DNA of 64,000 nucleotides from Borborobacter arsenicus (lineage in GTDB: Bacteria > Pseudomonadota > Alphaproteobacteria > Rhizobiales > Rhizobiaceae). Shown here in pieces: positions 9,616 through 25,313 of the stretch (position 1 is the stretch's first letter; the number at the start of each line of letters is the position of its first letter). The notes under the pieces were generated by a model. The model was not told where the DNA came from, did no database searches, and saw only the letters and a list, made by a program, of their open reading frames with translations. Both the position numbers and the translations under genes were made by a program. The stretch covers positions 1 through 64,000 of the forward strand of contig NZ_ML133512.1 in the NCBI RefSeq assembly GCF_003934165.1, given 5' to 3'.

Positions 9616-9618
9616 CCT

Positions 9619-10464
9619 TTAACCCGCCTTGCGACGTGGAGCGGCGGTTCGTTCGGCGCGTGCTTTCGTGGACCCGGATGCGGTCTTCTTGGCAAGGCTG
9701 GCGCTTTCACGCAGCGCCGCCATGAGATCGACCACCTTCTCGCGCTTCGGCTCCTTGCGCGGTTCGATCTTGCGACCTTCGAGCTTGGCCTTGACCAGAT
9801 CGGCAAGGGCGGCCTCGTAGCGGTCATGGAATTCCGATGGATCGAACTTGCCCTTTTTCGTTTCGATGATGTGTTCGGCCAGTTCCAGCATCTCGCCCTT
9901 GATCTTCATATCGGGCACTTCGTCGAAGGCGTCCTTGGCCGAGCGGACCTCATAGTCGAAATTCAGCGTGGTGGCGGCCAGCCCGTCGCCATGGGGACGG
10001 ATGAGCAGCGTGCGGACGCGGCGAAACAGCACCGTCTGGGCAAGGGCCGCGACCTTCTTTGCCTTCATGCCGTCGCGGATCAGCGCAAAAGCTTCCTCGG
10101 CGTGCCGGTCCGACGGCGCAAGATAATAGGGCTTGTCGAAATAGAGGTCGTCGACGTCGTCATTACGGATGAAGGCATCGACGGACAGCGTCTTGTCGCT
10201 TTCGGGAACGGCGGCGGCCACCTCCTCCGGCTCCAGCACGACATAGTCGCCCGGCCCGACCTCGTAGCCTTTGACCTGATCTTCCTTTTCAACCGGCTTG
10301 CCGCTGTCTCCGTCGATGAAAATCCGGTTGACGCGATGGCCGGTCGCCCGGTTGATGGTGTGGAAGGTGATGCGTTCGGAGGTGGAGGCGGCGGTGTAGA
10401 GTGCTACCGGACAGACCAGCTCGGCGACTTTCAGAAAGCCCTTCCAGTTCGCTCTCGGCGCCAA
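9619..10464 (-). CDS. ku: Ku protein 2, cotranscribed with ligD
   Basis: Second Ku. I prefer the TTG at 10464, giving 281 residues beginning (M)[12 protein letters not shown], which is how related rhizobial Ku proteins begin; GAGGG lies seven bases upstream. ATG codons at 10497 and 10599 would add 11 or 45 residues with no family resemblance and no good ribosome site. Core stretches [14 protein letters not shown] and [12 protein letters not shown] are present, with a basic Ala/Lys-rich tail. It is the partner of LigD by position. Two different Ku proteins in one locus allow hetero- or alternative complexes, as known in Sinorhizobium. Confidence 0.93.
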
Positions 10465-10602
10465 CTCGAAACCCTCGCTCCTGTCGCCGGCACGCATCTG
10501 CAGGCAAGGCAGATTGCCGGCGAACATCACAACGAGAGGCTCAACGCAGAACCCTTGGCTTTGTTCCATCATGACCTTTTCTGTGCCGGCACTTGCCATT
10601 TT

Positions 10603-11126: not shown

Positions 11127-11684
11127 TTGGCGCGAATGGTTCATGAGCGAACTGATGTCATCCCGCTTCTGGCCGAGATTTTTCGGGATCTCGGCTATGA
11201 GGGGGCGACCCTCAGCCGGATCACCGAAAGGACCGGCCTGGGGAAGGGCAGCCTCTATCACTTCTTCCCCGGAGGAAAGGAGGATATGGCGGCGGTCGTG
11301 CTCGCTGATGTCGATGCCTGGTTCGAGCGTTCTGTCTTCCAGCCGCTGCGGCTTGAAGAACCGCAACGGGCAATTCCTGCCATGTGGGAGGCGGTCGACG
11401 CTTATTTTCATTCCGGCCAGCGCATCTGTCTTGTCGGCGCCTTCGCGCTTGATGAGACCCGGGACCGCTTTTCTGCAACCATCCGAGGCTATTTCGGCCG
11501 CTGGATAGAGGCGTTGCAGGACGCCCTTCTGCGCGCGGGGCGCGACAAGGAGACGGCTGCACGCGACGCCGAAGAAACGGTCCTGGCAATCCAGGGCGCG
11601 CTTGTTCTTTCGCGTGCGACCGGCGACGAGGGGCTTTTCGCCCGCACCCTGGATCGGCTGCGGCTACGCGTTGCGGCGGCGTAG
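11127..11684 (+). CDS. TetR-family transcriptional regulator
   Basis: A 185-residue TetR-type repressor: an N-terminal helix-turn-helix region (GATLSRITERTGLGKGSLYH, residues about 22-41) and an all-helical ligand domain. The TTG start at 11127 has GGAG seven bases upstream; the in-frame ATG at 11136 has none at a sensible distance. It probably senses a small molecule and controls its own operon with the DUF1348 gene through the GTACA repeats. Its last 21 bases overlap the end of the convergent FAD oxidase gene. Confidence 0.85.
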   Translation: MARMVHERTDVIPLLAEIFRDLGYEGATLSRITERTGLGKGSLYHFFPGGKEDMAAVVLADVDAWFERSVFQPLRLEEPQRAIPAMWEAVDAYFHSGQRICLVGAFALDETRDRFSATIRGYFGRWIEALQDALLRAGRDKETAARDAEETVLAIQGALVLSRATGDEGLFARTLDRLRLRVAAA

Positions 11685-13124
11685 CCTGGGCTGAATTTGG
11701 GGCTTTTGGGGCAGCACCTTGCCGGGGTTCATGATCGTTTGGCCGTCCAGCGTCGCCTTCACCCGCGCCATAGCCTCGAGCTTGGTCGGATCGGCGGTGG
11801 TCAACAGGGAATGGATACGCTTGGAGCCGACGCCATGTTCGGCTGAAAACGAGCCGCCACGTTGGCGCAGCCCGTCATAGAGGACGGTTTCGACTGCACC
11901 GGCGATACGTTCCGGCAGCGGCCCGCGCCGGTTGAGCGCGATGTGCAGGTTGCCATCGGCCAGATGCCCGAAAAGATAGGGCTCCAGATCGGGCTCGATG
12001 GCGGACAGGCCCTGCAGGATATGGGCGACATAGGCGTCGATTTCCGACAGCGGCACAGAAACGTCGTAGGATGGCGAGGCCGGATGGGTGCGATAGATCA
12101 CATCCGTATCCTCGCGCAGCCGCCACAGGTCGATTTCCTGTTGCTTGGAACTGGCGATGATGCCGGTCGTTTCGGGGAAGCGGTCGAGCACTTCGGCAAA
12201 GAGCCGTTCGAATTCACTATGAAGCGCCTGCTCATTGGCGCCGCCAAGCGACAATAGCAGGCAGATCGGCTGGTCAAGCGGAAAGTCCGGTTCCGACCAG
12301 CCATGCGCGGAAGCCGCCAGCCTTATATAGGATTGCCATAGCGCCTCGGCAGCGCGCAGGTGGCCGGCCTCGGTGTCGAGGGCGAGCCGGATCGTTTCCA
12401 GCGCGGCACCGACGGAAGGCAGGCCGAAAAGCGCGGTTGCGGTGGCCCTGGGCAGCGGATCGAGTTTCAGCACGACGCGGGTGACGATGCCAAGCGTTCC
12501 TTCCGCGCCGATGAAGAGATGCTTCAGGTCGTAGCCGGCTGAGGTTTTCACCACGCGGGTCAAATCCGACAGGATCGAGCCGTCGGCCAGCACCGCTTCC
12601 AGGCCGAGCACACGATGGCGCATCACGCCGTTGCGGAAGGCCATGATCCCGCCGGCATTGGTGGAAACCATGCCGCCGATGGTCGCCGAACCGCGCGAGG
12701 GCAGATCGATGCCGGGCTCGAGCCGATGCTCGGCGGCGGCCATCTGCAGTGCCTCCAGGGTGGCGCCTGCCTGCACCACGGCCACGCGCTCGATCGGATC
12801 GAGCCGCTCGATCGTGTTCATGCGCGCCAGGGACAGCACGATCTGGCCGGGGCTCGACACGCTGCCGCCGACGAGGCCGGTGCGCCCGCCCTGCGGCACT
12901 ACCGGGACCTGATGGTCGCGGCAAAGGCGGATGACGGCGGCGACTTCCTCGGTCGAGCCAGGTGCAACAACAATGCCGGCGCCGAAATTGTCCGGGTTCC
13001 AGCCGGGATCGGCAGCGGTCACCACCTCGCCGGTCCGGACATTTCCCCCGCCGACGACCATTCGCAAGGCATCGAGCAGGGCGTCAGGAACTGGTTTTTC
13101 AGGCGATGCGGAATCCGGGGTCAT
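11664..13124 (-). CDS. FAD-linked 2-hydroxyacid oxidase/dehydrogenase (GlcD/D-LDH type)
   Basis: A 486-residue flavoenzyme of the FAD-linked oxidase C family (GlcD, D-lactate and D-2-hydroxyglutarate dehydrogenases). The FAD-binding PCMH domain is marked by VVPQGGRTGLVGG and by GSATIGGMVSTNAGG. The C-terminal substrate domain contains GHLADGNLH and ends with SAEHGVG and MNPGKVL. Such enzymes oxidise D-2-hydroxyacids to 2-oxoacids. The ATG overlaps the TGA of the aminotransferase gene (ATGA), so the two are coupled. That pairing suggests a 2-oxoacid/2-hydroxyacid intermediate. Substrate unknown. It is the last gene of the Rieske operon. Confidence 0.88.
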   Translation of the reverse strand: MTPDSASPEKPVPDALLDALRMVVGGGNVRTGEVVTAADPGWNPDNFGAGIVVAPGSTEEVAAVIRLCRDHQVPVVPQGGRTGLVGGSVSSPGQIVLSLARMNTIERLDPIERVAVVQAGATLEALQMAAAEHRLEPGIDLPSRGSATIGGMVSTNAGGIMAFRNGVMRHRVLGLEAVLADGSILSDLTRVVKTSAGYDLKHLFIGAEGTLGIVTRVVLKLDPLPRATATALFGLPSVGAALETIRLALDTEAGHLRAAEALWQSYIRLAASAHGWSEPDFPLDQPICLLLSLGGANEQALHSEFERLFAEVLDRFPETTGIIASSKQQEIDLWRLREDTDVIYRTHPASPSYDVSVPLSEIDAYVAHILQGLSAIEPDLEPYLFGHLADGNLHIALNRRGPLPERIAGAVETVLYDGLRQRGGSFSAEHGVGSKRIHSLLTTADPTKLEAMARVKATLDGQTIMNPGKVLPQKPQIQPRLRRRNA

Positions 13125-14227
13125 TTTGCGGGCACCAGTTGGGCGAGGGCCTGGATCAGGCGGTCGTTTTCGGCCGGAGAGCCGATGGTGGCGCGCAGGA
13201 AGCATTCATAGCCCTTTTCACGCCAGGCCTTGACGATGATGCCTTCCTGCAGGAGCGAAGCCGCCAGAGCGGAACTGTCGCCACCGCAATCGAAGAACAG
13301 GAAATTGGTCTGCGACGGGGCGAGGCGAAGCCCGAGTTTTTCCAGCGCGGCGGCAACACGCAACCGCTCGGCGCGGATGCGTGCGACCGATGCCTTCATC
13401 CAGGCTTCGTCCTCAAGTGCTGCAATGGCTGCGAGCTGGGCGGCGGCATTGACGTTGAAGGGCGTCTTGGCAGCCGCGATCACCCGCGCGACCTCATGAT
13501 CGGAACAGACGGCATAGCCGACGCGCAGGCCGGCCAGCCCATAGGCCTTGGAGAAGGTGCGCAGCACGACATGGGCAATTCCGCTCTCGCGCAGCACCTC
13601 GATCCCGTCCGGCGCGTCCGGATCTGCGAATTCGAAATAGGCTTCGTCGAGGACGAACAGCGTGCCGGGCCGCACCGCACTGACCAGGCGCTCAAGTGCC
13701 TGGCTGTCGAGGCCGGGGCCGACCGGGTTCCAGGGCGAAGAGAGGAAGACGACGCGCGGGCCAGCAGCGATCGCCTGTTCGAGCGCATCGAGGTCGAAGC
13801 CGAGCGATGCGCTCATCGGCACCTTGACCACGCTGGCGCCGGCGGCAAGCGGCTCGATTTCATGCAGGCCGAAGCTCGGAACCACAGTGGCCACGGAAGT
13901 GCCGGGGACGAGCAGCGCCCGCGAGATGGCGGCGATCATTTCTTCCGAGCCGTTGCCGACGACGATCCGGGATGGCTCGATCCGCAGTCTTTCGCCGAGT
14001 GCTGCACGCAGTGCCGAGCAGGCAGGGTCGGCATAGCGCCATGGCTCGAATGCGGAGGAGGCCAGCGCTGCCATCACCGCCGGCGAGCAGCCATCGGGGT
14101 TCTCGTTGCTGGCGAGACGGGCGATGTCATGTCGGCCGCTGGCGGCGCGGGCGGCGGCGATGTTCATGCCGGCATTATAGGCCGGCAGCGAGGCGACATG
14201 CGGGTTGAAGGGCAGGCTGCTTTCCAA
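13121..14227 (-). CDS. HisC-like PLP aminotransferase
   Basis: A class I/II aminotransferase closest to histidinol-phosphate aminotransferases, about 368 residues. Visible landmarks are ASNENPDG near the N-terminus, GNGSEEM, SSPWNPVGP, FVLDEAYFEF and RTFSKAYGLAGLRVGY, which contains the PLP lysine. HisC-like enzymes act on histidinol phosphate and on aromatic amino acids. Location in a catabolic operon rather than with his genes argues for a catabolic transaminase, possibly for an imidazole or aromatic amino acid (inference). The start is uncertain: no ATG before 14167; TTG 14227 has GAGG five bases upstream, TTG 14251 is an alternative. Confidence 0.85.
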   Translation of the reverse strand: MESSLPFNPHVASLPAYNAGMNIAAARAASGRHDIARLASNENPDGCSPAVMAALASSAFEPWRYADPACSALRAALGERLRIEPSRIVVGNGSEEMIAAISRALLVPGTSVATVVPSFGLHEIEPLAAGASVVKVPMSASLGFDLDALEQAIAAGPRVVFLSSPWNPVGPGLDSQALERLVSAVRPGTLFVLDEAYFEFADPDAPDGIEVLRESGIAHVVLRTFSKAYGLAGLRVGYAVCSDHEVARVIAAAKTPFNVNAAAQLAAIAALEDEAWMKASVARIRAERLRVAAALEKLGLRLAPSQTNFLFFDCGGDSSALAASLLQEGIIVKAWREKGYECFLRATIGSPAENDRLIQALAQLVPAK

Positions 14228-14289
14228 TTTCGCCTCGACCGATTGTTCCAAGTTCAGCTTCCGTTTTGAGAGAGTAATGACACAGGCGG

Positions 14290-15408
14290 TCAGATGTCGA
14301 TCACGACCGGCCCCTGGGGCTTCGAGCAGCACAAGAGCATTTCGCCGGCACCGAGCTCGTCCAGCGGCTCCTCGAAATAGGCGACCTCGCCTTCGACCAG
14401 GCGTGACTTGCAGGTGCTGCAGATGCCCGCCCGGCAACTGAAGTCCGGCGAAAGTCCCTGCGCCTCGGCAAAATCGAGCAGCGAGCCTGCTTCCTCGTCC
14501 CACATTGCGGTCAGGCCGGATTTGCGGAACTCGACCGTGATACCATCGCCTGCAACGGCTTTGTCCGCAGATGGCGGAGCGGCGGCCGGGACGGGCGCGG
14601 CAGGGGCCTGTTCGAGAACGGTAGCAGGGCCGAAGAATTCATAGGCGATGCGGTGCCTTTCGATGCCAAGGCCGCGCAGGATTTGGTAGACCGCCTGCAT
14701 GAAGGGCGGTGGCCCGCACAGATAGACCTCGTAGTCGTCGAGCGGCAGCAGGCTTTGCAGCAATTCGCGGCTGATGAGGCCTTCGCTGTGATGGCGTTTG
14801 TCTGCCTTGTCCCGTTCGGTGGGGAAGCGGTAGCAGAAATGCGTTTTGATGCCGGGGCGCGAGGCGGCAAGCGCCTCCACTTCATCGCGCAGCGCATGCA
14901 CATCGCCATTGTCGCAGGCATGGACGAAATGCACCCGGCGGTCGGTGGCAGTAAGCGCATGCAGCATAGACACCATCGGCGTCAGCCCGACGCCGCCGCT
15001 GAGCAGCAGGACCGGGCGCGTGCTGGTGCGGTCAAGCACGAACTCGCCGCGCGGGCCTTCGGCTGCAAGCACGTCGCCGACCTCGATCGCATCGTGCAGA
15101 TAGCAGGAACTGACGCCGTCGGGCAGGCCGGGCTGCGGCGCGGCTTCCCGCTTCACCGTGATGCGGTAGCTGCCCTCGCGAGCGGGCGAGCAGGAGACGC
15201 TGTAATTGCGCAACACAAAATCGTCCCGTCCGGGAACCGGGATACGGAACACCAGGAATTGCCCCGGCTGGAACGCCCGCCAACCGTCCGGGTCAGCGGG
15301 TTCCAGATGAAAAGAAGTGATGACACTGCTTTCACGGATTTTCGCGACCACCTTCAGGTCGCGAAAACCGCTCTTGCGTTGCGCCAACTGTGCGACCGGA
15401 GCGTTCAT
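14290..15408 (-). CDS. FAD/NAD(P)H reductase with C-terminal 2Fe-2S domain
   Basis: A 372-residue electron-transfer reductase. The N-terminal ferredoxin-reductase part has the flavin motif RNYSVS and the NAD-binding GGVGLTPM. A Pro/Ala-rich linker leads to a plant-type 2Fe-2S ferredoxin with cysteines spaced C-x4-C-x2-C (CRAGICSTC) and a last cysteine in LLCC. It passes electrons from NAD(P)H to the Rieske oxygenase encoded just upstream; their genes overlap by ATGA. This is the usual two-component oxygenase design (compare vanillate demethylase VanAB). Confidence 0.92.
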   Translation of the reverse strand: MNAPVAQLAQRKSGFRDLKVVAKIRESSVITSFHLEPADPDGWRAFQPGQFLVFRIPVPGRDDFVLRNYSVSCSPAREGSYRITVKREAAPQPGLPDGVSSCYLHDAIEVGDVLAAEGPRGEFVLDRTSTRPVLLLSGGVGLTPMVSMLHALTATDRRVHFVHACDNGDVHALRDEVEALAASRPGIKTHFCYRFPTERDKADKRHHSEGLISRELLQSLLPLDDYEVYLCGPPPFMQAVYQILRGLGIERHRIAYEFFGPATVLEQAPAAPVPAAAPPSADKAVAGDGITVEFRKSGLTAMWDEEAGSLLDFAEAQGLSPDFSCRAGICSTCKSRLVEGEVAYFEEPLDELGAGEMLLCCSKPQGPVVIDI

Positions 15409-16445
15409 TCGGCGGCCGCGAGCTGCGGGTTCTCGCTGGCGATCAGATTGGCCAGGTTGCGGCGGAAGCGCAGCGGGCCGACGTCGATCTTGAGATCGAG
15501 ATTGGGGGTGCGCTTGTTAGCCATGCCCTTGTGCACGGCATTGAGCACCACGCGGTCCTCCTCGAAGGCGCCGCGCACCGACTTGGCGAACTGGCTCGAC
15601 ACTTCCTCGTCATTCGGCGCGAAATTGCGCATCTGGAACCAGTAATATTTCGTCTGGTTCTCATCGACCGGCGTCATGAAATTGTAGCTGTCCATCAGGA
15701 ACACGTCTTCGTGGAAGGGCTTGCCTTCGCCGCCGGTATTTGCCGGCACGAAGATCGCCCTGATGATGGCATTGCTCGGATAGCGCACCTCATAGTGCTG
15801 CTTGCGGTCGCAATTGCCGGAGAATTTGAGGAAGGGCGCATAGAAGGGAGCCGGCTCGACGTCGATCATCCAGCGCCAGACCGTCACCCCATCCTCGCCG
15901 ACCGTCGTTTCGAGCGGGGCGCCTTCCATGGCCTGGACGCCGCCGAAGGACGACTGGTGCACCCATGAGACATGCGACGGATCGAGCAGGTTGTCGGTCA
16001 TGTAGAGATAGTTGCAGTCCAGCACCATGGACTCGCCCCTGTTGACGCCCCAGGCCGGGTCGCCCCAATGCTCGACTTCGAAGATCTTTGCCGGATCAGC
16101 CTTTTCGGCCTCGCCCATCCAGATCCACAACAGGCCGTAGCGCTCGGCGATCGGATAGGACTGGACGCGCGCCACATGCGGAATCTTTTCGGCGCCCGGA
16201 ACACGGGTGCAGGTGCCGGTGCAGTCGAATGTCAGGCCATGATAGCCGCATTCGACGTCGTCGCCCTTGATGCGCCCCATCGACAGCGGCAGCTTGCGAT
16301 GCGGGCAGGCATCCTCCAATGCGGCCGGCGTGCCGTCGCTCTTGCGGTAAAGGACGATATCTTCGCCGAGAATCTTGACCGGCTTAAGCTCGCGCCCGAC
16401 CTCATGGTCCCATGCGGCGACATACCAGGCGTTTTTCAGGAACAT
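15405..16445 (-). CDS. Rieske non-haem iron oxygenase, VanA-like
   Basis: An oxygenase of 346 residues. The Rieske cluster ligands are Cys47, His49, Cys66 and His69 (CPHRKLPL ... CGYHG). The mononuclear iron site is NLLDPSHVSWVH with His158 and His163. It belongs to the vanillate O-demethylase / caffeine N-demethylase type, which removes methyl groups from O or N or hydroxylates aromatic rings. Its reductase is translationally coupled downstream. AGGAGG lies eight bases before the ATG. The LysR gene is divergent. Substrate not known; oxidative demethylation of an amino-acid-like compound would fit the neighbours (inference). Confidence 0.9.
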   Translation of the reverse strand: MFLKNAWYVAAWDHEVGRELKPVKILGEDIVLYRKSDGTPAALEDACPHRKLPLSMGRIKGDDVECGYHGLTFDCTGTCTRVPGAEKIPHVARVQSYPIAERYGLLWIWMGEAEKADPAKIFEVEHWGDPAWGVNRGESMVLDCNYLYMTDNLLDPSHVSWVHQSSFGGVQAMEGAPLETTVGEDGVTVWRWMIDVEPAPFYAPFLKFSGNCDRKQHYEVRYPSNAIIRAIFVPANTGGEGKPFHEDVFLMDSYNFMTPVDENQTKYYWFQMRNFAPNDEEVSSQFAKSVRGAFEEDRVVLNAVHKGMANKRTPNLDLKIDVGPLRFRRNLANLIASENPQLAAAE

Positions 16446-16530
16446 GATGGCTTCCTCCTAGGGGTGGCTTTCTATCGTTTTGACGATACGCCGCCGCCAG
16501 CAGCGTATAAAGAGCTTGCAAATGTGTTCT

Positions 16531-16549
16531 GTTTTAGAAAACCTAAAAC
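16531..16549. promoter_or_regulatory. LysR-type operator GTTTTAG-N5-CTAAAAC
   Basis: A perfect seven-base dyad with a five-base spacer, containing a T-N11-A core as expected of LysR proteins. It lies in the 131-base gap between the divergent Rieske operon and the LysR gene, 28 bases before the LysR start. Most likely bound by that regulator. Confidence 0.75.
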
Positions 16550-16576
16550 AAACCTCGATAGTGGATGTGACACCGC

Positions 16577-17524
16577 TTGACCAGCAAACTGCCTCCCTTG
16601 CGCGCGATACAGGCCTTCGAAGCTTTTGGCAGGCACGGCAGCGTGACCGCAGCCGCCGAGGAGCTTGGCGTTTCGGCCGGAGCGATCAGCCAGCAGATCC
16701 GCAAGGCTGAAGAGGCGCTTGGCCTGCGGCTTCTGGAGCGGCGCGGCAGGACCGTGGCGCTGAGCTCCTGGGGCAAAATCTATCATGCCGAGATTTCCGT
16801 CGGCTTCGACCAGATAAGGCAGGCGCAGGACATGCTGGCCCGCAGGCGGCTGGAAAGCGGGTTCACCATTTCCTGCCTGCCTTCGCTTGCCATCAAATGG
16901 GTCGCGCCGCAGCTTTTCGACTGGCAGGCCGACCATCCGGGCGCGGCGGTGCGCCTGGAAGGCACCGAGTTCGAGCCGCGATTTGGCAAGGACCAGGTCG
17001 ATTTCCGCATTTCCTACGGTGCCAAGATCCGCGCCTTCGACCATTATGTCGAATTGTTCACCGATTGGGTGGTGCCGGCCTGCTCGCCGGCGCTGCTGGC
17101 CAGGCACAGTCTGCGTAGACCCGCGGATATTCTCGACCTGCCGCTCCTGGGCATCGAATGGGACCGCGCCCATGGCTCGCCGCCCGGCTGGCCGGAATGG
17201 GCGGCAAGCATCGGCGCGCATTACAGCAAGTCCCCGGGCGAACTTACCTTGTCGCTGTCGAGCGCGGCGATCGATGCGGCCGTCAATGGCCGCGGCTTCG
17301 TGCTGGCGCAACTGGCGATGGCGGCAGACGAGATCGCGACCGGCCGGCTGGTGGTGCCCTTCAATCAGCGGCTGCAGCTGTCGGATGCCTATTTCCTGGC
17401 ATGGGACAGGGCTGCGCTCGAAAAGCCCTACGGACCGGAACTGCGCGCATGGATCACCGCCATTTCCAAGCGGCAGGAGGCGCTGTCGAACAATTGGGCG
17501 CCGCCGCCGGTCGCGCTGGGCTGA
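16577..17524 (+). CDS. LysR-family regulator (GcvA-like)
   Basis: A 315-residue LysR protein with an N-terminal winged helix (residues about 8-67; SVTAAAEELGVSAGAISQQI) of the GcvA subgroup and a periplasmic-binding-like effector domain. The start codon is TTG. It is transcribed divergently from the Rieske oxygenase operon and probably activates it through the dyad at 16531. It ends 45 bases before the convergent acyl-CoA dehydrogenase gene. Confidence 0.9.
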   Translation: MTSKLPPLRAIQAFEAFGRHGSVTAAAEELGVSAGAISQQIRKAEEALGLRLLERRGRTVALSSWGKIYHAEISVGFDQIRQAQDMLARRRLESGFTISCLPSLAIKWVAPQLFDWQADHPGAAVRLEGTEFEPRFGKDQVDFRISYGAKIRAFDHYVELFTDWVVPACSPALLARHSLRRPADILDLPLLGIEWDRAHGSPPGWPEWAASIGAHYSKSPGELTLSLSSAAIDAAVNGRGFVLAQLAMAADEIATGRLVVPFNQRLQLSDAYFLAWDRAALEKPYGPELRAWITAISKRQEALSNNWAPPPVALG

Positions 17525-17569
17525 GCCGCAGACGTCCAGCCCGTCCCTCCCTCCTGCCATCATCGCTGG

Positions 17570-18703
17570 TCAGCCCAGTATGGTGCGCGCGATGATATTG
17601 CGCTGGATTTCCGAGGAGCCTTCATAGATGCGGAAGATGCGCGCGTCGCGGGCATAGCGTTCAAGCGGCAGGTCGCGCGTATAGCCATAGCCGCCATGGA
17701 TCTGGATCGCCTTGTCGGTGACGCGGCCGACCATTTCGGAAGCAAAGAGCTTGGCCATGGACGACTCGCGCGAATAGCGCTCGCCGGCCTCGCGCTTGGT
17801 CGCCGCCGAAATGCCGAGCAGCCGGGCCGCTTCGATATCGGTCGCCATGTCGGCGAACATCCATTGCAGCCCCTGCAGGGTCGCGATCGGCGCGCCGCCG
17901 ATCTTGCGCTGCTTTGCCCATTCGATCGCAGCGCCAAGGGCCGCCTCGGCGATGCCGACGGCGCAGGCGGCAATCTCGACGCGGCCGCCGTCGAGCACCT
18001 TGAGTGCGGTACGGAAGCCGGAGCCTTCCGGCCCGAGGCGGTCTTCTTCCGCAACCAGGCAATCGATCGACACTTCGAAGACATGGCCGCCGCGCAGGCC
18101 CATGGTGCGCTCGGGCGAGCCGAAGCGCAGGCCGCCGGCCTTGGGGTCGACCACGAAGGCGGAGATGCCGCGCGCGCCCGCCGCAGGGTCGGTCTTGGCA
18201 TAGACGACGATGAAATCGGCCTCGCCGGCATTGGAGATGAAGTGCTTGGTACCGGTGATGCGGTAGCCGTCGCCTTCGCGTATCGCGCGTGTCGTCATGT
18301 CGGCGGGATTGGAGCCGGCGCCCGGTTCGGTCAGGGCAAAGGCACCGAGGCTCCGGTCGGCCGCGCCGGTGAGGTAGCGATGCCGCTGCGCCTCGTCGCC
18401 GCCATAGAGGATGGAATCGGTGGCAAGCCAATGCGCGGTGATCATGGAAGCGGTAGAGCCGCAGGCCCCGGCAATCAGCGCCACCGCGTCGAACAATGCG
18501 GTCGCGCGCAGGCCAAGGCCGCCATAGGCCTCGGGAATGTTGAGGCCCATCAGCCCCATTTCGGCGAGGCTTTCGAGATGGCAGGTGGCCGAGCGCCCGG
18601 TCTCATCGATCTCGGCCGCCGCCGGCACGAGCACCTCGGCGCAATAGCGGCGGATCGCTTCCAGCAGCGCCTTGTCGTCTTCATTATGCGTGATCATGGT
18701 CAT
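17570..18703 (-). CDS. Acyl-CoA dehydrogenase
   Basis: A 377-residue FAD-dependent acyl-CoA dehydrogenase. Visible signatures are FALTEPGAGSNPADM (first family signature), ITGTKHFISNAG, the QIHGGYGYTRDLP stretch, and the C-terminal IYEGSSEIQRN, whose glutamate is the usual catalytic base. The ATG overlaps the TGA of the upstream CoA-transferase gene (ATGA), so the two enzymes act together: a carboxylic acid is activated to its CoA thioester and then alpha,beta-desaturated. The long open frame upstream of 18703 is only a shadow of the CoA-transferase gene. Confidence 0.92.
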   Translation of the reverse strand: MTMITHNEDDKALLEAIRRYCAEVLVPAAAEIDETGRSATCHLESLAEMGLMGLNIPEAYGGLGLRATALFDAVALIAGACGSTASMITAHWLATDSILYGGDEAQRHRYLTGAADRSLGAFALTEPGAGSNPADMTTRAIREGDGYRITGTKHFISNAGEADFIVVYAKTDPAAGARGISAFVVDPKAGGLRFGSPERTMGLRGGHVFEVSIDCLVAEEDRLGPEGSGFRTALKVLDGGRVEIAACAVGIAEAALGAAIEWAKQRKIGGAPIATLQGLQWMFADMATDIEAARLLGISAATKREAGERYSRESSMAKLFASEMVGRVTDKAIQIHGGYGYTRDLPLERYARDARIFRIYEGSSEIQRNIIARTILG

Positions 18704-19872
18704 GCCTCCCGGCCGAGTTCGGCCAATATGGTGGTGCGGTCCGCATCGAGGGCGGGGGCGGCTGCTATGCCGCCGCGTGGCGCGCCGCCGAAACGGGCGG
18801 GCTGTTCGGGCACCTGCATGGCGCCGAGCAGCGGATGCGCCGTTTGCTGCAGCATGCCGCGCGAAAGCGCATGCGGCGAGGTCAGCGCCTCGGCCATGTC
18901 CTGGATTTCGGCGGCCGGCACGCCGGCGGCCACCAGGGCTTCGACCGCGCCGGAGGCGGTGAGCCCGCGCGACCATGCTTCGATCGCCTCGCGCAAGGCC
19001 TGTTCATTGGCAAGCCGGTCGGAATCGGAACGAAAGCGGCTGTCCTGGCTCAATTCCGGCCGGCCGATGAGCTCAGCCAATATGCCGAACAGCTTGTTGT
19101 TGAGAACGGCCAGCACGAACATGCCGTCGCGCGCCTGGAACGCCCCGAAGGGTGCGGAGAGCGCATGACGGTTGCCGACGCGCTGCGGCGCCTGACCGGA
19201 AGCAAGGTAGCGGGCGACAACCAGCGGCTGGAGGGCGATCATCGCGTCGAACATAGCCAGGTCGATCTGGCGGCCAAGGCCGGTGCTCTGGCGCTCGACC
19301 AGTGCCGCGAGGATGGACCATGAGCCGAACAGGCCGGCGACGACATCGGCAATGGATTCGCCCACCAGTGTCGGCGGGCCGTCCGGCGAGCCGGTGACCG
19401 ACATGATGCCGCTCATCGCCTGGAGGACGATGTCATAGGCCGGACGAGCGGCAAGTTCGCCCTGCTGGCCAAAACCGGAAATGGACGCATAGACCAGCTT
19501 GGGATTGATCGTGGACAGTTGCTTCCAGCCGATGCCGAGCTTGTCGGCGACGCCGGGACGGAAGTTCTCGACCACGACATCAGACTTCGCCGCCAGCGCC
19601 TGGACGATGGCGAGATCTTCCGGCTTGGTCAGGTCCAGAGCGATGCTGCGCTTGCCGCGATTGATGGCCAGGAAAAGTGCGCTCTCGCCCTCGATGAAGG
19701 GACCCACATGGCGGTAGTCGTCGCCGGCTGGCGGCTCGACCTTGATGACGTCGGCACCCAGATCGGCCAGCAGGGCGGTGCAGTAGGGGCCGGCCAGCAC
19801 ACGGCTGAAATCCAGTACGCGTATGCCGGCGAGAGGGCGCGACGCGGCCGGTTGGGGAGGGGCTTCGGGCAT
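18700..19872 (-). CDS. CaiB/BaiF family III CoA-transferase
   Basis: A 390-residue class III CoA-transferase. It begins with LAGIRVLDFSRVLAGPYC and contains the conserved VIKVEPPAGDD, NRGKRSIALDL and FRPGVADKLG. The aspartate in GRQIDLAMFDAM is the expected acyl-anhydride-forming residue. It moves CoA between carboxylic acids. GGAG lies seven bases before the ATG. The next gene, acyl-CoA dehydrogenase, is translationally coupled. The promoter region is shared with a divergent amino-acid ABC transporter and carries two matching operators. Confidence 0.92.
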   Translation of the reverse strand: MPEAPPQPAASRPLAGIRVLDFSRVLAGPYCTALLADLGADVIKVEPPAGDDYRHVGPFIEGESALFLAINRGKRSIALDLTKPEDLAIVQALAAKSDVVVENFRPGVADKLGIGWKQLSTINPKLVYASISGFGQQGELAARPAYDIVLQAMSGIMSVTGSPDGPPTLVGESIADVVAGLFGSWSILAALVERQSTGLGRQIDLAMFDAMIALQPLVVARYLASGQAPQRVGNRHALSAPFGAFQARDGMFVLAVLNNKLFGILAELIGRPELSQDSRFRSDSDRLANEQALREAIEAWSRGLTASGAVEALVAAGVPAAEIQDMAEALTSPHALSRGMLQQTAHPLLGAMQVPEQPARFGGAPRGGIAAAPALDADRTTILAELGREA

Positions 19873-20198
19873 TCGTTTTCTCCGGTTGCCGGTCGGGGAT
19901 TAAGGCGGCGGCGAAAGGTGCCGCCACCTCGCAGCTTTCATAATATGTATATACATAATTAAACGCCATGCAAGCGGGTTGTCAGCGGCTTTTGCGCTGC
20001 CGGCAGCGATGGGGGTCTCATCGCAGCCGATGCAACCCAGCATTGATCCGTGCAGCTCATGTCATCCAGATGATGCGTTGACTCGCTTTTGAAACGCTGC
20101 CTATATGTATAGTCATATCGACTTTCAGGCGGTCCAGGGTCGATAGTTTCGCAAGCTTGTGAGCCCCGCAGCGGGCAAAAACTCAATGGGAGATGTCA
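19873..20198. promoter_or_regulatory. Divergent promoter region with two matching dyads
   Basis: This 326-base gap holds no gene. It contains TATGTATATACATA at 19944-19957, near the CoA-transferase start, and ATATGTATAGTCATAT at 20103-20118, near the transporter start. Both fit ATATGTATANNCATA and lie exactly 160 bases apart. The first contains TGTATATACA, which resembles sites described for HutC-type GntR repressors. For the transporter, TTGACT (20078-20083), 18 bases, TATATG (20102-20107) is a possible promoter overlapping the second dyad. The GntR/HutC-like gene at 23218 is the obvious candidate regulator. Confidence 0.75.
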
Positions 20199-21026
20199 AT
20201 GCAGAAGAGGTTTTTCCTCAAGGCGCTGGTCGGTGCGGCGTTCCTTGTCGGTGCGACGGCGGGGGCCTATGCGCAGGATGCGCTCGCCCGCGTCAAGGAG
20301 TCCGGAACGCTCAAGGTCGGCACGGAGACCGCCTTCGCGCCGTTCGATTTCATCGATGCAGGAACGCATACGGGCCTGAATGTCGATTTATATGACGAGA
20401 TCGCCAAGGAACTCGGCGTCAAGATCGAGTGGGTCCTGCTGCCCTGGGAAGGCGTGCTGCCTGGCCTCGAAGCCGGCAAGTTCGATATCGTCGGCGGGCC
20501 GGCAACGGTTACCAAGCAGCGCATGGAGCGCTATCGCTTCACGCCGCCGGTCGCCGAGGCAACGGTTGCCCTGCTGAAGCGTGCTGGTGATGAAAGCGTG
20601 AAGAAGCCCGAAGATGTGGCCGGCAAGGTGGTTGGCGGCGGCAAGGCTTCGGCCCAACTCGAACAGCTCAAGGCATTTGTCGATACGCTGCCTGGCAAGG
20701 CCGATGTGCGTGAATATCCGGGCAACAACGAGGCCTATGCCGATCTGGCCGCCGGCCGTATCGTGGCGGTGGGTAATTCGTTGCCCAACATCGCCTTTGT
20801 GGCCAAGCAGCGTCCCGACACGTTCGAGGTTGTCCAGCCGCCCTTCGGTACCAAGGCCTATTTCGCCTATCCCGGCCTGAAAGACGACGACCACAAGAGC
20901 CTGATGGATGCGATCGAAGCGGCCATGCTCAAGATCAAGGGCGATGGCCGTCTTGCCACAATTCAGGAGAAGTGGTTCGGCGCCAAGTTCGAGACGCCTG
21001 ACCTGGTCAACGAACCGGCACTCTAA
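20199..21026 (+). CDS. Polar amino-acid ABC transporter, substrate-binding protein
   Basis: A 275-residue periplasmic binding protein of the family 3 (PAAT) type. It has a signal peptide ending near AYAQ and the domain start VKESGTLKVGTETAFAPFDF. These proteins bind amino acids or close analogues. I take the ATG at 20199 because GGGAG lies six bases upstream; the ATG at 20193 directly abuts that site. The two permeases and the ATPase follow. The substrate is presumably what the neighbouring CoA-transferase and dehydrogenase help degrade. Confidence 0.92.
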   Translation: MQKRFFLKALVGAAFLVGATAGAYAQDALARVKESGTLKVGTETAFAPFDFIDAGTHTGLNVDLYDEIAKELGVKIEWVLLPWEGVLPGLEAGKFDIVGGPATVTKQRMERYRFTPPVAEATVALLKRAGDESVKKPEDVAGKVVGGGKASAQLEQLKAFVDTLPGKADVREYPGNNEAYADLAAGRIVAVGNSLPNIAFVAKQRPDTFEVVQPPFGTKAYFAYPGLKDDDHKSLMDAIEAAMLKIKGDGRLATIQEKWFGAKFETPDLVNEPAL

Positions 21027-21040
21027 CTGATTGAACAAAT

Positions 21041-21072
21041 CCGCCGCGCTCTCGTAAAGGAGGGCGCGGCGG
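21041..21072 (+). terminator. Hairpin between binding-protein and permease genes
   Basis: CCGCCGCGC (21041-21049) pairs with GCGCGGCGG (21064-21072). No T-run follows. Such stems between binding-protein and permease genes commonly stabilise the upstream message or cause partial termination, giving excess binding protein. Confidence 0.55.
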
Positions 21073-21115
21073 TGCTGCATTCCAACCCAGCCAACCCAGA
21101 CGGGCAAGCCGCTTT

Positions 21116-21757
21116 ATGTCCTGGAAATTGTTCGAACTGCTGGTCCAGGCATCGCTCTATACGGTGCTCATCAGCTTCATCTCCATCACCATCGGCCTAG
21201 CGATCGGCATGGTGGTGTCGGCGGCGGCCCTTTCGCCGAGCCGCGCACTGTCCGTTCCGGGACGGACCTTCGTCAGCTTCTTCCGCGGCGTGCCGCTTCT
21301 GGTGCAGCTTCTGCTGATCTACAATCTGCTGCCGGCGCTCGGCCTCAACGTGCCGAGCGTGGTTGCGGCGATCACCGGGCTTTCCCTGTGCACGGCAGCC
21401 TACCAGGCCGAGAACCTGCGTGGCGGCTTCCAGAGCGTGCCGCGCGGACTGCTGGAGGCCGCCGACATGGCGGGGCTCAGCGCATTCCAGCAGTTCCGGC
21501 GCATCAGGGCGCCGATTGCCCTGCGGCTTGCCTTCCCTTCGCTGGTCAATGAAGCGATCATGATCCTGAAGGCCTCGTCGCTGGTTTCGGTGGTCGGCAT
21601 CGTCGAGCTGACGCGCATGGCGCAGGACCTCGCCGCCAGCACCTACCGGCCGATCGAGTTGTTTTCGGCAGCCGGCCTGCTCTATCTCATCATCAACTGG
21701 CTGATCGCCTCGGGCGGCTCGCTGTTCGAACGCTCCTTCCGCTGGGGGCGGCCATGA
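21116..21757 (+). CDS. Amino-acid ABC transporter permease 1
   Basis: A 213-residue inner-membrane permease of the HisM/GlnP type. Several hydrophobic segments are present, and the coupling loop contains NLRGGFQSVPRGLLEAADMAGL, the EAA-type contact to the ATPase. It pairs with the second permease, whose ATG overlaps its TGA. Confidence 0.92.
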   Translation: MSWKLFELLVQASLYTVLISFISITIGLAIGMVVSAAALSPSRALSVPGRTFVSFFRGVPLLVQLLLIYNLLPALGLNVPSVVAAITGLSLCTAAYQAENLRGGFQSVPRGLLEAADMAGLSAFQQFRRIRAPIALRLAFPSLVNEAIMILKASSLVSVVGIVELTRMAQDLAASTYRPIELFSAAGLLYLIINWLIASGGSLFERSFRWGRP

Positions 21758-22422
21758 ATTTCGATACGAACCTGATCGTAAGCATCATGCCCGAACTTGC
21801 GCGGGCGTTCGGGGTGACCCTGTTGACATGGGGCGTGGGCGTGATCGGCGCGGCGATCCTCGGCTTCCTGGTCGCCGTCGGGCGGCGCTATGGCAGCGCC
21901 TGGCTGGGCTATCCGCTGTGGCTGTGCGTCGAGGTCATCCGCGGCACGCCGTTCCTGATCCAGCTCTTCCTGCTCTATTATGGCGGGCCGTTCGTCGGTC
22001 TCTCGCTGGAGCCTATCCCCGCCGGCCTGCTGGGTCTCACCGTCTATGGCGCCGCCTATTTCAGCGAAATCTTCCGGGCCGGCTTCGAAGCCGTGCCGCC
22101 GGGCCATGTCGAGGCGGCCGAATGCGTCGGCCTCAACCGGCGCCAGATCGTCCGTCGCATCCTGATACCGGAAATGACCATGCTGGTGCTGCCGGCCTCG
22201 GTCAACATGGCCATTATCCTGCTCAAGGAAACCGCCGTTCTGTCCATCATCACCGTTCCGGAACTGACGCTGGTGATCAGCGCCATCGGTTCGCAGCAAT
22301 ATGCTTTCGTCGAGTCGCTCTTCCTGCTTGCCCTGTTCTACTGGGGCCTGGTCGAGCTTTCCGGCAGGCTCGGACGCTACATGGAAGCCCGCCTCTCAAA
22401 ATACAGGTTTGCAACTGCATGA
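21754..22422 (+). CDS. Amino-acid ABC transporter permease 2
   Basis: A 222-residue permease of the HisQ/HisM family with the segment FRGTPFLIQ-like (IRGTPFLIQLFLLY) and the coupling loop RAGFEAVPPGHVEAAECVGL. It starts with an ATGA overlap with permease 1 and ends with an ATGA overlap with the ATPase gene. The heterodimer forms the membrane channel of the importer. Confidence 0.92.
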   Translation: MNFDTNLIVSIMPELARAFGVTLLTWGVGVIGAAILGFLVAVGRRYGSAWLGYPLWLCVEVIRGTPFLIQLFLLYYGGPFVGLSLEPIPAGLLGLTVYGAAYFSEIFRAGFEAVPPGHVEAAECVGLNRRQIVRRILIPEMTMLVLPASVNMAIILLKETAVLSIITVPELTLVISAIGSQQYAFVESLFLLALFYWGLVELSGRLGRYMEARLSKYRFATA

Positions 22423-23210
22423 CGACGCCAGCCATTTCCGTCAAAGGACTGATCAAGCGTTTCGGCGAAGCCGAGGTGCTGCACGGGATCGACCTCGACA
22501 TCCCGCAGGGACAGGTCACCTGCCTGATCGGTCCGTCCGGTTCGGGCAAGAGCACGCTGCTGCGCTGCATGGCCTTCCTGGAGGAGGCGACAGACGGCCT
22601 GATATTCATCAATGGCGAGCCGCTGGGCTTTGCGCCCGGGCCGCAGGGAAAACCGGTGCGCCTGCCTGCCGCCCGCATCCGCGCGGTGCGCTCGCAGATC
22701 GGCATGGTGTTCCAGCAGTTCAATCTGTGGCCGCATATGACCGCGCTGGGTAATGTCAGCGAGGCGCTGAAGACGGTGCATGGCGTGCGCAAGAACGAAG
22801 CCGAAGAGCGCGCCATGATTCAGTTGAAGAAGGTCGGCCTGGCCGAGCGCGCAGGGCATTATCCCTCGCAGCTTTCCGGTGGCCAGCAGCAGCGCGTGGC
22901 GATCGCGCGAGCGCTGGCGTTGGAGCCGAAGATCATGCTGTTCGACGAACCGACCTCCTCGCTGGACCCGGAACTGACCGGCGAAGTGCTGAACGTCATG
23001 CGCTCGCTGGCGGCAGACGGCATGACGATGGTGGTGGTGTCGCATGAGATCGGCTTTGCGGCGGCGGTCTGCCAGCAGATCGCCTTTCTCGACCACGGCA
23101 AGCTTTTGATGACAGGCACGCCGCAACAGATATTCGGCAAGCCGCGCCACCCGCGCCTCGACCAGTTCCTCGACACCTATCTGGATCGCGGCGCCGCCAT
23201 GCTGGTCTAG
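22419..23210 (+). CDS. Amino-acid ABC transporter ATPase
   Basis: A 263-residue ATPase of the HisP/GlnQ group. Walker A is GPSGSGKST, the Q-loop is MVFQQFNLWPHM, the signature is LSGGQQQRVAIARAL, and Walker B is IMLFDEPTSSLDPE, followed by the switch histidine in VVSHEIGFA. The ATG overlaps the stop of permease 2; the much longer frame upstream is not coding. It is followed after seven bases by the GntR regulator, so regulator and transporter are one operon. Confidence 0.94.
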   Translation: MTTPAISVKGLIKRFGEAEVLHGIDLDIPQGQVTCLIGPSGSGKSTLLRCMAFLEEATDGLIFINGEPLGFAPGPQGKPVRLPAARIRAVRSQIGMVFQQFNLWPHMTALGNVSEALKTVHGVRKNEAEERAMIQLKKVGLAERAGHYPSQLSGGQQQRVAIARALALEPKIMLFDEPTSSLDPELTGEVLNVMRSLAADGMTMVVVSHEIGFAAAVCQQIAFLDHGKLLMTGTPQQIFGKPRHPRLDQFLDTYLDRGAAMLV

Positions 23211-23217
23211 GAATAAA

Positions 23218-23949
23218 ATGGAGGCGCGGGCAAATCCTGACAGGCGCTCGCTGCATCAGCGCATTCTAAGTGATGTAGAAGGCCGCATCCTGTCGGGGGA
23301 GTGGTCGCCCGGCTACCGCATCCCCTTCGAGCACGAACTGACGGCGCAATATGGCTGCTCGCGCATGACCGTGAGCAAGGTGCTGAACCAGCTCGCAAGG
23401 GCCGGCCTCATCGAACGCCGGCGCCGCAGCGGAAGCTTCGTTCTGCGGCCGCATTCGCAATCGGCCGTGCTGGAAATCCGCGACATCATGGTCGAGGTGC
23501 AGGCGCTCGGGCTTGCCTACCGCTTCGATATCGTGAAGCGAACCCGGCGCCAGGCCAATCGGTCCGATCTCGACCGGCTGCATCTCGACAAATCCGTGCC
23601 GGTTCTGGAATTGGCCTGCCGCCATTTCGGCGGCGACCAGCCATTCTGTTTCGAGGAAAGGCTGATCAATCTCGACGCGGTTCCAGAGGCTGACGCGGAG
23701 ACGTTTGCCGAGCGCGCGCCCAGCCCCTGGCTGGTGGAGCAGGTGCCCTGGAGCACGGGCGAGCACCGCATCCAGGCAATCGGTGCGACTGCCGCCACTG
23801 CCGCAGCACTCGACATCGCCAGGGGGACGCCCTGCCTGCTGATCGAGCGGCGCACCTGGAGCGCCGAGCAGCCGATCACCCATGTCCGCCTGACCTATCC
23901 GGGCGAGGGCCACGAGCTTGTGGCGCGCTTTGCCCCCTCCCAAGGCTGA
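23218..23949 (+). CDS. HutC-like GntR-family regulator (UTRA domain)
   Basis: A 243-residue regulator with an N-terminal GntR winged helix (residues about 10-75: FEHELTAQYGCSRMTVSKVL) and a C-terminal UTRA ligand domain. It closely follows the pattern of HutC, the histidine-utilisation repressor, including the WSTGEHRIQA stretch. HutC responds to urocanate. Here it ends an ABC transporter operon rather than a hut operon, so the effector may be a related imidazole or aromatic compound (inference). The repeated ATATGTATANNCATA dyads in 19944-20118 are its likely targets. Confidence 0.88.
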   Translation: MEARANPDRRSLHQRILSDVEGRILSGEWSPGYRIPFEHELTAQYGCSRMTVSKVLNQLARAGLIERRRRSGSFVLRPHSQSAVLEIRDIMVEVQALGLAYRFDIVKRTRRQANRSDLDRLHLDKSVPVLELACRHFGGDQPFCFEERLINLDAVPEADAETFAERAPSPWLVEQVPWSTGEHRIQAIGATAATAAALDIARGTPCLLIERRTWSAEQPITHVRLTYPGEGHELVARFAPSQG

Positions 23950-24080: not shown

Positions 24081-25187
24081 ATGTTGACGCGACGCGAAGC
24101 CCTCATCGGAGCAGCCTGGGCGGCTGCCGCGGCGGCCGCGATACCCGCAACCCCGGTTATGGCAGAGGTGAAGGCCGATGTCGGCGCGCTGCCCCGCCAG
24201 AAGGTGTCGCTCGTTGCTCCACCCTTCGTGCATGACCATGAGCAGGTCGCCACAGGCGGACCCAAGATCGTCGAATTCACCATGAAGATCGAGGAAAAGC
24301 CGGTCGTCATCGATGACGAGGGCACCGCCTTGCGGGGCATGACCTTCAACGGCTCGATTCCCGGACCGATGATGGTGGTCCATGAAGGCGACTATCTCGA
24401 ACTGACGCTGGTCAATCCCGAGACAAACGAGATGCCGCATAATATCGACTTCCACGCGGCAACGGGCGCGCTGGGCGGCGGGGCGCTGACCCACATTAAT
24501 CCCGGTGAGCAGGTGACGCTGCGCTTCAAGGCGACGCGGAGCGGGACCTTCGTCTATCACTGCGCGCCGGAAGGCATGATCCCGTGGCACGTGGTGTCGG
24601 GTATGAGCGGCACCGTGATGGTGCTGCCGCGCGGGGGCCTCAAGAACGACAAGGGCGAGCCGGTGCGTTATGACCGGATCTACTATGTCGGGGAAAACGA
24701 GTTCTACATCCCCCGCGACGAGGCCGGGAACTTCAAGACCTATGAATCGCTCGGCGAAAGCTATGACGATACGCTTGCGGTGATGCGCGGGCTGGTTCCC
24801 ACCCATGTCGTGTTCAACGGCAAGGTTGGCGCTTTGACCGGCGAGAATGCGATGAAGGCGAAGGTCGGCGAGACCGTGCTGATCGTCCATTCTCAGGCCA
24901 ATCGCGATACGCGGCCGCATCTGATCGGCGGACATGGCGACTATGTTTGGGAAGAGGGCAAGTTCGCCAACCCGCCCGCCAAGGATCTGGAGACCTGGTT
25001 CGTGCGCGGCGGATCTGCGGCGGCGGCGCTCTACACTTTCCTGCAGCCGGGTGTGTATGCCTATGTCAACCACAACCTGATCGAGGCGGCGGAACTTGGG
25101 GCGACGGCTCACTTCACCGTCGAGGGTGAGTGGAACGACGATCTGATGACGCAGGTCGACGCGCCGAGGCCGATCGCCACCAACTAG
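24081..25187 (+). CDS. nirK: NirK copper nitrite reductase
   Basis: Periplasmic NO-forming nitrite reductase of 368 residues with a Tat-type leader (TRREALIG). Type 1 copper ligands are His120, Cys161, His170 and Met175. Type 2 copper ligands are His125, His160 and His331. The catalytic Asp123 and His280 are in place. AGGAG precedes the ATG. It is preceded by an NnrR-type box and followed by a strong terminator and then nirV. It probably receives electrons from the pseudoazurin encoded at 27728. All catalytic residues are intact, so the enzyme should be functional. Confidence 0.97.
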
Positions 25188-25212
25188 AGGCGATCAATCA
25201 GGAAAGACGCGA

Positions 25213-25247
25213 GCGGCCTGTCGGAAACCTCCGCCAGGCCGCTTTTT
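25213..25247 (+). terminator. Intrinsic terminator after nirK
   Basis: GCGGCCTG (25213-25220) pairs with CAGGCCGC (25235-25242), followed by five T (25243-25247). It lies 25 bases after the nirK stop and before nirV, so nirV may be transcribed by readthrough or from its own start. Confidence 0.85.
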
Positions 25248-25253
25248 CATTCA

Positions 25254-25295: not shown

Positions 25296-25313
25296 CCTCC
25301 AAGGAGAGCTGGA

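Follow-up and report, generated by a model that had tools for sequence, protein, structure and literature searches.

A gene cluster at positions 11664 to 23949 of the 64,000-nucleotide stretch that we analyzed from Borborobacter arsenicus (contig NZ_ML133512.1, positions 1 to 64,000; here referred to as the window) most likely feeds ring-methylated histidine, imidazole-propionate, and perhaps imidazole-lactate into the ordinary histidine breakdown of this soil bacterium. We think it probable that the cluster provides entry branches into the histidine utilization (Hut) pathway for modified histidines. These would be taken up by an amino acid importer, and the products of three branches would go to the Hut pathway encoded elsewhere in the genome. 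In branch A, which we consider highly probable, a class III CoA-transferase (CoAT) would put CoA on imidazole-propionate and an acyl-CoA dehydrogenase (ACAD) would form urocanoyl-CoA; passing the CoA to the next imidazole-propionate would free urocanate for HutU. We infer both the substrate and the direction of this branch. In branch B, which we moderately favor, a VanA-type Rieske oxygenase and its reductase would strip the ring N-methyl group from a methylhistidine (with anserine or balenine as the source) to give histidine for HutH and formaldehyde; the substrate is presumed, and the choice of ring nitrogen lies beyond sequence evidence. In branch C, which is tentative and in our estimate somewhat more doubtful than probable, a D-hydroxyacid dehydrogenase would make imidazole-pyruvate from imidazole-lactate and a HisC-like enzyme would transaminate it to histidine, again with presumed substrates. 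HutC is predicted to repress branch A and the importer via TGTATATACA, a LysR protein probably governs the Rieske operon, and the importer ligand is, like these regulatory actions, a prediction.

The genes for the ACAD (17570..18703) and the CoAT (18700..19872), both on the minus strand, belong to a pair whose relatives repeatedly lie in or beside hut operons. The CoAT matches PF02515 (CoA_transf_3) at 435.2 bits (cut-off, 23.3) and carries an IAD motif with Asp176, and the ACAD has the Acyl-CoA_dh N, M, and 1 domains and a YEGS motif; we take Asp176 and the YEGS glutamate to be catalytic. Both proteins fall below the cut-offs of carnitine families, the CoAT for L-carnitine CoA-transferase (128.3 versus 413) and the ACAD for crotonobetainyl-CoA dehydrogenase (159.3 versus 540). 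We queried 385 genomes of the class with the CoAT and 398 genomes of the phylum with the ACAD and inspected ∼20 kb around the closest pairs from 10 genomes other than its own. Hut genes lay within ∼10 kb of the pair in six of these (G042, G594, G732, G536, G556, and G436; labels beginning with G, L, and C are ours for genomes, loci, and contigs). The order in G536 is hutH-CoAT-ACAD-hutU, and G042 holds a Rieske gene, a HutC-like gene, hutH, CoAT, ACAD, and hutU, all inside 20 kb. The annotated plasmids of Paracoccus alcaliphilus and P. aminophilus read hutI-hutH-hutG-CoAT-ACAD-hutU followed by an amino acid importer, with genes that overlap through the ACAD gene and a gap of 12 bases between it and hutU. 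In Thioclava, the pair is preceded by hutF, hutI, and hutH. Eight of the 14 plasmid records with an ACAD gene were inspected: three carry hut enzymes, that of Mesorhizobium sp. AR02 carries HutC and an importer, that of Gemmobacter fulvus carries a Rieske unit, and three have no neighbor of note except LysR. Because the pair is embedded among hutH, hutG, and hutU, imidazole-propionate is the obvious substrate, and its CoA ester would be dehydrogenated to urocanoyl-CoA.

Alternatively, the pair could act on another aryl- or alkyl-propionate, or it could work in the opposite sense and reduce urocanoyl-CoA. In favor are close homologues that lack hut genes in their vicinity and the top NCBIfam match of the ACAD, acryloyl-CoA reductase, which stays below its cut-off (362.1 versus 640). 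The position of the pair between hutG and hutU on two Paracoccus plasmids and the HutC operator common to both units (see below) argue against this alternative, and the known reductive route, as far as the accessible part of PMC13320830 describes it, uses a different enzyme, UrdA. We regard this alternative as unlikely and retain the oxidation of imidazole-propionate. In trees of CoAT and ACAD proteins, hut-linked and unlinked members are intermixed, and the window copy groups with two unlinked copies (L003 and L004). Weaker CoAT matches from other genomes (45 to 50% identity, n = 43) were sampled at four places, none of which had an ACAD or hut neighbor; these four form a group of their own in the CoAT tree, and there is no split into two functions inside the clade of the pair. 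Separately, three loci (L151, L152, and L153) hold CoAT-ACAD pairs that diverge from a LysR gene and lack hut genes in the vicinity, their ACAD proteins being 64 to 66% identical to that of the window.

The Rieske oxygenase gene (15405..16445, minus strand) and the gene for its presumed partner, a flavin/NAD/2Fe-2S reductase (14290..15408, minus strand; Pfam FAD_binding_6, NAD_binding_1, and Fer2), form the other half of the cluster. A Rieske query of the 385 class genomes (E up to 1e-60, at most 5 candidates scored per genome) gave 59 places among the matches listed, six of which reach an identity of at least 54% (the window, G040, G154, G042, G252, and G213). HutH exceeds the TIGR01225 cut-off in 97 of the 385 genomes, including all six carriers. 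Among the matches listed, the distance from the Rieske gene to hutH in the five genomes other than the window's was 1.1, 2.5, 1.2, 2.7, and 12.3 kb (five of five), whereas none of 53 weaker homologues (≤44% identity) lay within 100 kb of hutH; Fisher's test on close versus weak homologues gives p = 1.2e-6 with the window's own copy counted as a miss, although with several places per genome the observations are not independent. The gene orders in G154 (L147) and G252 (L148) are hutI-hutH-hutG-hutU-Rieske and Rieske-hutU-hutG-hutH-hutI, respectively, and HisC-like and FAD oxidase genes were not found in either 20-kb stretch. A Rieske gene that sits inside hut operons without the transaminase implies that the Rieske enzyme itself belongs with Hut.

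For wider context, the 317 relatives found for the Rieske protein were narrowed to the best 80, mostly from Rhizobiales, and their genes were examined together with flanks of up to 10 kb; neighbor families were named via clustering and Pfam/NCBIfam, identity thresholds for the counts are our own, and several loci end at contig edges. Four loci (L030, L038, L041, and L043) represent approximately one lineage, their HutH, HutU, and HutI being 88 to 99% identical to those of L043, and L060, a Marinimicrobia metagenome-assembled genome (MAG), is possibly mis-binned. Of the gene families in the cluster itself, the commonest neighbors are LysR (71 loci), the reductase (67), the HisC-like enzyme (53), and the FAD oxidase (48), followed by the importer binding protein (15), HutC (8), CoAT (4), and ACAD (4); a HutD/Ves-type protein is also frequent. 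Hut enzymes comprise HutH (16 loci), HutU (13), HutI (12), HutF (12), and HutG (11), with any hut enzyme in 16 loci and at least two in 15. The hut-bearing loci include Mycoplana, Gemmobacter, Xinfangfangia, Aureimonas, Fulvimarina, Geminicoccaceae, Acidovorax, Rhodoferax, and Paralcaligenes. Within the genome collection, the Rieske protein most similar to that of the window comes from Mesorhizobium sp. Root552 (93% identity). Among plasmids, 13 of 51 records with a Rieske gene were inspected, and four have it near hut genes (Aureimonas AU20, Leisingera caerulea, Mameliella alba, and a 28-kb Paracoccus yeei plasmid). The last of these, P. yeei pLM20P5 (L168), holds a compact version of the system, with a HisC-like gene, FAD oxidase, LysR, Rieske, reductase, an aspartoacylase-like gene, an ABC importer, GntR, hutF, and hutI.

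The oxygenase itself has the makeup of a VanA-type demethylase, with a Rieske domain (78.7 bits; cut-off, 20.3) and a VanA_C domain (157.9; cut-off, 23.5). Nine residues (C47, H49, C66, H69, D155, H158, H163, E296, and D297) are invariant across 36 homologues, and we take all of these but E296 to be the cluster and mononuclear-iron ligands. In a structure search with the AlphaFold model (mean pLDDT, 90.4), the nearest folds were those of dicamba monooxygenase and 7qwt, a guaiacol O-demethylase (TM scores mostly 0.8 to 0.9), then SxtT and GxtA, and then the caffeine N-demethylase NdmA. Genes for formaldehyde disposal occur near some relatives: glutathione-dependent formaldehyde-activating enzyme (Gfa) in 10 of the 80 loci, class III alcohol dehydrogenase (ADH; FrmA) in 10, and either in 12, with FrmA also in the Rieske unit of L. 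caerulea. These neighbors fit formaldehyde release by the Rieske enzyme, and class III ADH is present in the window genome. Demethylation of vanillate or lignin compounds was considered and dismissed, as the context consists of hut genes.

Two other readings of the oxygenase were weighed. In the first, it demethylates an α-N-methylated histidine, such as hercynine (histidine betaine), rather than a ring-methylated one. Hut linkage would be equally expected for hercynine, Rieske demethylation of betaines likewise releases formaldehyde, and the reductase resembles GbcB, though far under the cut-off (153.6 versus 500). However, the oxygenase has VanA_C, and Ring_hydroxyl_A is absent from its Pfam matches; the solved folds nearest to it whose substrates are named belong to enzymes for aromatic or heteroaromatic compounds; and a sarcosine oxidase is annotated in just one of the 13 Rieske plasmid regions (a 51% homologue from Ruegeria conchae), with no specific search made for it. 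We consider this reading improbable. In the second, marginally less likely still, the enzyme is no demethylase but hydroxylates or desulfurizes an imidazole, such as one derived from ergothioneine. SxtT and GxtA, which are C-H hydroxylases, rank next in the structure search, but the two closest solved folds are demethylases, and the Gfa and FrmA neighbors described above also speak against this reading. Ring N-demethylation remains the preferred role. G042 has a second Rieske gene between hutH and CoAT (L122:7826-8941); its product is of the Ring_hydroxyl_A type and possibly a betaine-type demethylase, e.g., for hercynine. Phytanoyl-CoA-dioxygenase-type proteins near Rieske or CoAT-ACAD units (L076:8982-9959, L123:12452-13285, and L169:9086-9874) possibly add a further oxidative step on histidine derivatives.

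Methylhistidines and anserine are compounds of muscle and meat. Forty-seven of the 80 Rieske loci encode a DUF2817 protein, which we take to be a peptidase; it is frequently a fusion with an ABC ATPase and shows one weak AstE_AspA match; M20 peptidases occur in five loci, and aspartoacylase-like proteins adjoin some Rieske genes. Such neighbors would fit hydrolysis of acyl- or dipeptide-bound methylhistidine such as anserine. The window genome gave no DUF2817 match, a weak result, as the control gave none either. In a Pseudomonas fragi strain isolated from meat, a plasmid encodes LysR, an importer of the histidine type, DUF2817, and the Rieske protein, with an FAD-binding oxidoreductase where the reductase would sit. 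Other Rieske carriers come from soil, nodules, leaves, and seawater, so that meat is just one habitat. Adjoining the L. caerulea unit is a gene annotated as a class II histone deacetylase (L164:11338-12447), which perhaps deacylates N-acylated histidine.

Regulatory sequence also ties the cluster to the hut operon. The HutC protein of the window (23218..23949, plus strand) scores 293.9 bits against TIGR02018 (cut-off, 220), and the only other match over the cut-off in the genome, of which it is the second paralogue, belongs to the hut operon on contig C4. The accessible part of PMC12977541 gives the HutC operator as TGTA-N2-TACA, a pattern that we fixed before the genome scan. The sequence TGTATATACA, which fits it exactly, occurs at exactly two places in the 5.45-Mb genome, at C4:224054 between hutI and hutF and at window position 19946 (19946..19955); a backward-pattern control gave 0. 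The latter, the sole exact site in the window, lies in the divergent promoter of the CoAT-ACAD and importer-HutC units; the CoAT gene starts 74 bases away from it and the gene for the solute-binding protein 244 bases away. With exact sites at the hut operon and at the cluster, both units share the operator sequence. A possible weaker site with two mismatches lies at 20106..20115, and the motif scan found two more such sites elsewhere in the window. The 131-base divergent promoter region of the Rieske operon and LysR (16446..16576) has no exact or one-mismatch site. A looser pattern, chosen after one-mismatch sites had been seen in the window and so of descriptive value only, gave 18 sites in the 1.48 Mb of Rieske sequence, spread over 14 of the 80 loci (0 after mononucleotide shuffling and 0 in reversed sequence), and 11 sites in the 0.77 Mb of 38 other loci, 10 of which have at least one (reversed, 0). 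HutC-type sites lie at most 170 bases upstream of the Rieske gene in three of the 80 loci (L037, L062, and L076) and between importer and CoAT in AR02 (L150). Exact sites lie upstream of ABC-DUF2817-Rieske genes on plasmids of Pseudomonas fragi and Pseudomonas bubulae, directly before the first importer gene in the former.

Branch C draws on the FAD-linked 2-hydroxyacid dehydrogenase (FAD oxidase; 11664..13124, minus strand; FAD_binding_4 and FAD-oxidase_C; intact open reading frame [ORF]) and the HisC-like pyridoxal phosphate (PLP) aminotransferase (13121..14251, minus strand, TTG start). The latter scores 285.4 against TIGR01141 (cut-off, 276.55) and 425.8 against PRK05166 (below 540), and it carries an FSKAYGLAG motif, in which the lysine presumably has a role. 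A biosynthetic histidine role is unlikely because the genome has another HisC above the TIGR01141 cut-off (C7, 302.4 bits), and the context is catabolic. Glycolate oxidase (GlcD) was rejected for the FAD oxidase, which scores 244.1 against TIGR00387 (below 567.9). Its best PDB relatives are an unnamed “putative oxidoreductase,” then D-2-hydroxyglutarate and (D-)lactate dehydrogenases; it belongs to the D-2-hydroxyglutarate/D-lactate dehydrogenase superfamily, with imidazole-lactate as a candidate substrate. Conversion of imidazole-lactate via imidazole-pyruvate to histidine is perhaps the simplest reading of the two genes in this context.

All genes named in the initial annotation are present as intact ORFs, with families assigned by a Pfam/NCBIfam scan of 10 of the 12 cluster proteins (the two permeases lay outside it) and main Pfam domains above curated cut-offs; HutH, HutU, HutI, HutF, and HutG are absent from these 10. 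The FAD oxidase, HisC-like, reductase, and Rieske genes are on the minus strand; a GcvA-like LysR-family regulator (16577..17524, plus strand, TTG start; HTH_1 and LysR_substrate) diverges from them; ACAD and CoAT follow on the minus strand; and the rest lie on the plus strand, namely, a family-3 amino acid solute-binding protein (20199..21026; SBP_bac_3, 116 bits), two amino acid ABC permeases (21116..21757, an ORF with tblastn conservation and the same annotation in the AR02 relative, and 21754..22422, present in 15 of the 80 Rieske loci), an ABC ATPase (22419..23210; ABC_tran), and HutC. The two operons and importer thus lie side by side as first described, a description that left out the LysR gene between the halves. 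The four-base ATGA overlaps said to mark most junctions are found at five of the eight within-unit junctions (Rieske/reductase, HisC-like/FAD oxidase, CoAT/ACAD, permease/permease, and permease/ATPase), and the remaining gaps are 38, 89, and 7 bases. Beyond the cluster, two Ku proteins and LigD, a bacterial end-joining set, are encoded upstream at 6091-10599. Directly after HutC, at 24081-27625, are a multicopper oxidase (nitrite-reductase-like, judging by its neighbors), an FGE-sulfatase-domain protein, and NnrS, a denitrification-type cluster that is apparently unrelated.

The initial annotation had also proposed catabolism of an imidazole compound, with an N-methylated histidine or imidazole-lactate as candidates, and this idea is backed by genome context, formaldehyde genes, and HutC operators. 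Its single linear route of demethylation, transamination, interconversion, CoA activation, and desaturation was rejected as the main model, since the halves are apart in most relatives and each is linked to hut on its own; CoAT or ACAD is near the Rieske gene in just four of the 80 loci. Halves that are mostly apart, each in or beside hut operons elsewhere, are more readily explained as parallel branches converging on histidine or urocanate. The outcome that the initial annotation had named as refuting its proposal, no conserved neighborhood between the halves, is what most Mesorhizobium relatives show, but the halves are together in other lineages (L022, L054, L122, and a G. fulvus plasmid, p2) and on the AR02 plasmid. 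Least likely of all is that the halves are unrelated modules and neighbors by chance; this reading finds support in their joint presence in just four of the 80 Rieske loci and in the different regulators (LysR and HutC), but both halves are found jointly in Mycoplana, a Geminicoccaceae MAG, G042, G. fulvus, and Mesorhizobium AR02, and each independently accompanies hut genes. The same block of genes stands in the same order in Mesorhizobium sp. Root552 (L003), and it recurs in that order on the 95-kb AR02 plasmid (L150) together with a DUF2817-ABC unit, in a stretch where repABC-type genes and a Tn3 transposase are also present. We see an even chance that this is a mobile, often plasmid-borne modified-histidine island, a HutC-wired add-on to Hut that combines a CoA route to urocanate with a ring N-methylhistidine demethylase.

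Several observations weigh against the proposed entry into Hut. The hut operon of the window genome has neither half of the cluster beside it. Among the 17 Mesorhizobium-named Rieske loci, no hut enzyme gene was found in the stretches inspected, and HutC with CoAT/ACAD is found in one. Hut genes are missing within ∼10 kb of the pair in four of the 10 pair genomes (G263, G037, G079, and G681; loci L120, L121, L123, and L139) and near the pairs on P. yeei pYEE1, Leisingera S132, and a Pseudosulfitobacter plasmid, which LysR adjoins. The stretches from Paracoccus, Thioclava, G732, and G536 gave no match to the looser HutC pattern, and a window-type reductase was not found in the 20-kb stretches of L147 and L148, where the Rieske gene is inside the hut operon. 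No Gfa over the cut-off was found in the window genome, although control genomes were equally without a match, and the point is weak. The family of the solute-binding protein does not reveal the importer ligand. Branch C is the weakest, being held together by co-location, and its oxidase family is D-specific, while the title of a 1973 study names imidazolyl-L-lactate.

That study reportedly describes conversion of the compounds of branches A and C, as activities without genes and with no methylhistidine in its title; by that title, the conversions of these two branches had already been studied. By the title of another study, imidazole-propionate is a “nonmetabolizable inducer” of the enzymes that degrade histidine in Aerobacter; the CoAT-ACAD pair would make it metabolizable. 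The compound is a microbial metabolite with reported higher levels in diabetes and a reported link to heart failure, according to the accessible parts of PMC7676231 and PMC12512386, and its production by UrdA is described in those of PMC13320830 and PMC11872695. Genes for its bacterial degradation appear neither in the literature matches listed nor in the accessible parts of the latter two papers, and no gene assignment for the 1973 conversions was found in the literature searched, including those parts and the corresponding ones of PMC12977541 and PMC12772324. Judged by title, the literature searched held no work on bacterial urocanoyl-CoA, imidazole-propionate degradation, or imidazole-lactate genes; judged by title or the start of the abstract, it held none joining methylhistidine and Rieske enzymes, and no bacterial methylhistidine or anserine demethylase was found in the matches listed. 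The enzyme families are known, and the pathway and gene assignment appear new within the literature searched. The pair would supply candidate genes for destroying diabetes-linked imidazole-propionate. If our reading is true, ring N-methylhistidine adds a substrate class to those of the VanA-type Rieske enzymes, and with the peptidase and importer variants of relatives, anserine or balenine in meat and animal waste would serve as growth substrates.

The cluster resembles the Hut pathway in its HutC family and operator, in the occurrence of both halves in hut operons elsewhere, and in its products, which would be histidine and urocanate; it differs as an upstream extension with no Hut enzyme among its 10 scanned proteins. 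With the VanA-type Rieske demethylases (those of vanillate, of dicamba [DdmC], of guaiacol [7qwt], and of caffeine [NdmA/B]), it shares domain layout, fold, a separate reductase, and formaldehyde genes near some relatives, whereas its oxygenase is only ∼30% identical to DdmC and 7qwt and ∼20% to NdmA, is hut-linked, and has an amino acid as its proposed substrate. CaiB and CaiA of carnitine metabolism are also a class III CoA-transferase and an acyl-CoA dehydrogenase, and they likewise combine CoA recycling with a flavin enzyme acting beside the carboxyl group; unlike them, the window pair falls below the carnitine-family cut-offs, is found in or beside hut operons elsewhere, and is proposed to work in the oxidative direction. 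UrdA, as the accessible part of PMC13320830 describes it, also links urocanate and imidazole-propionate, but it makes imidazole-propionate, whereas the window pair is proposed to run the opposite way, through CoA esters.

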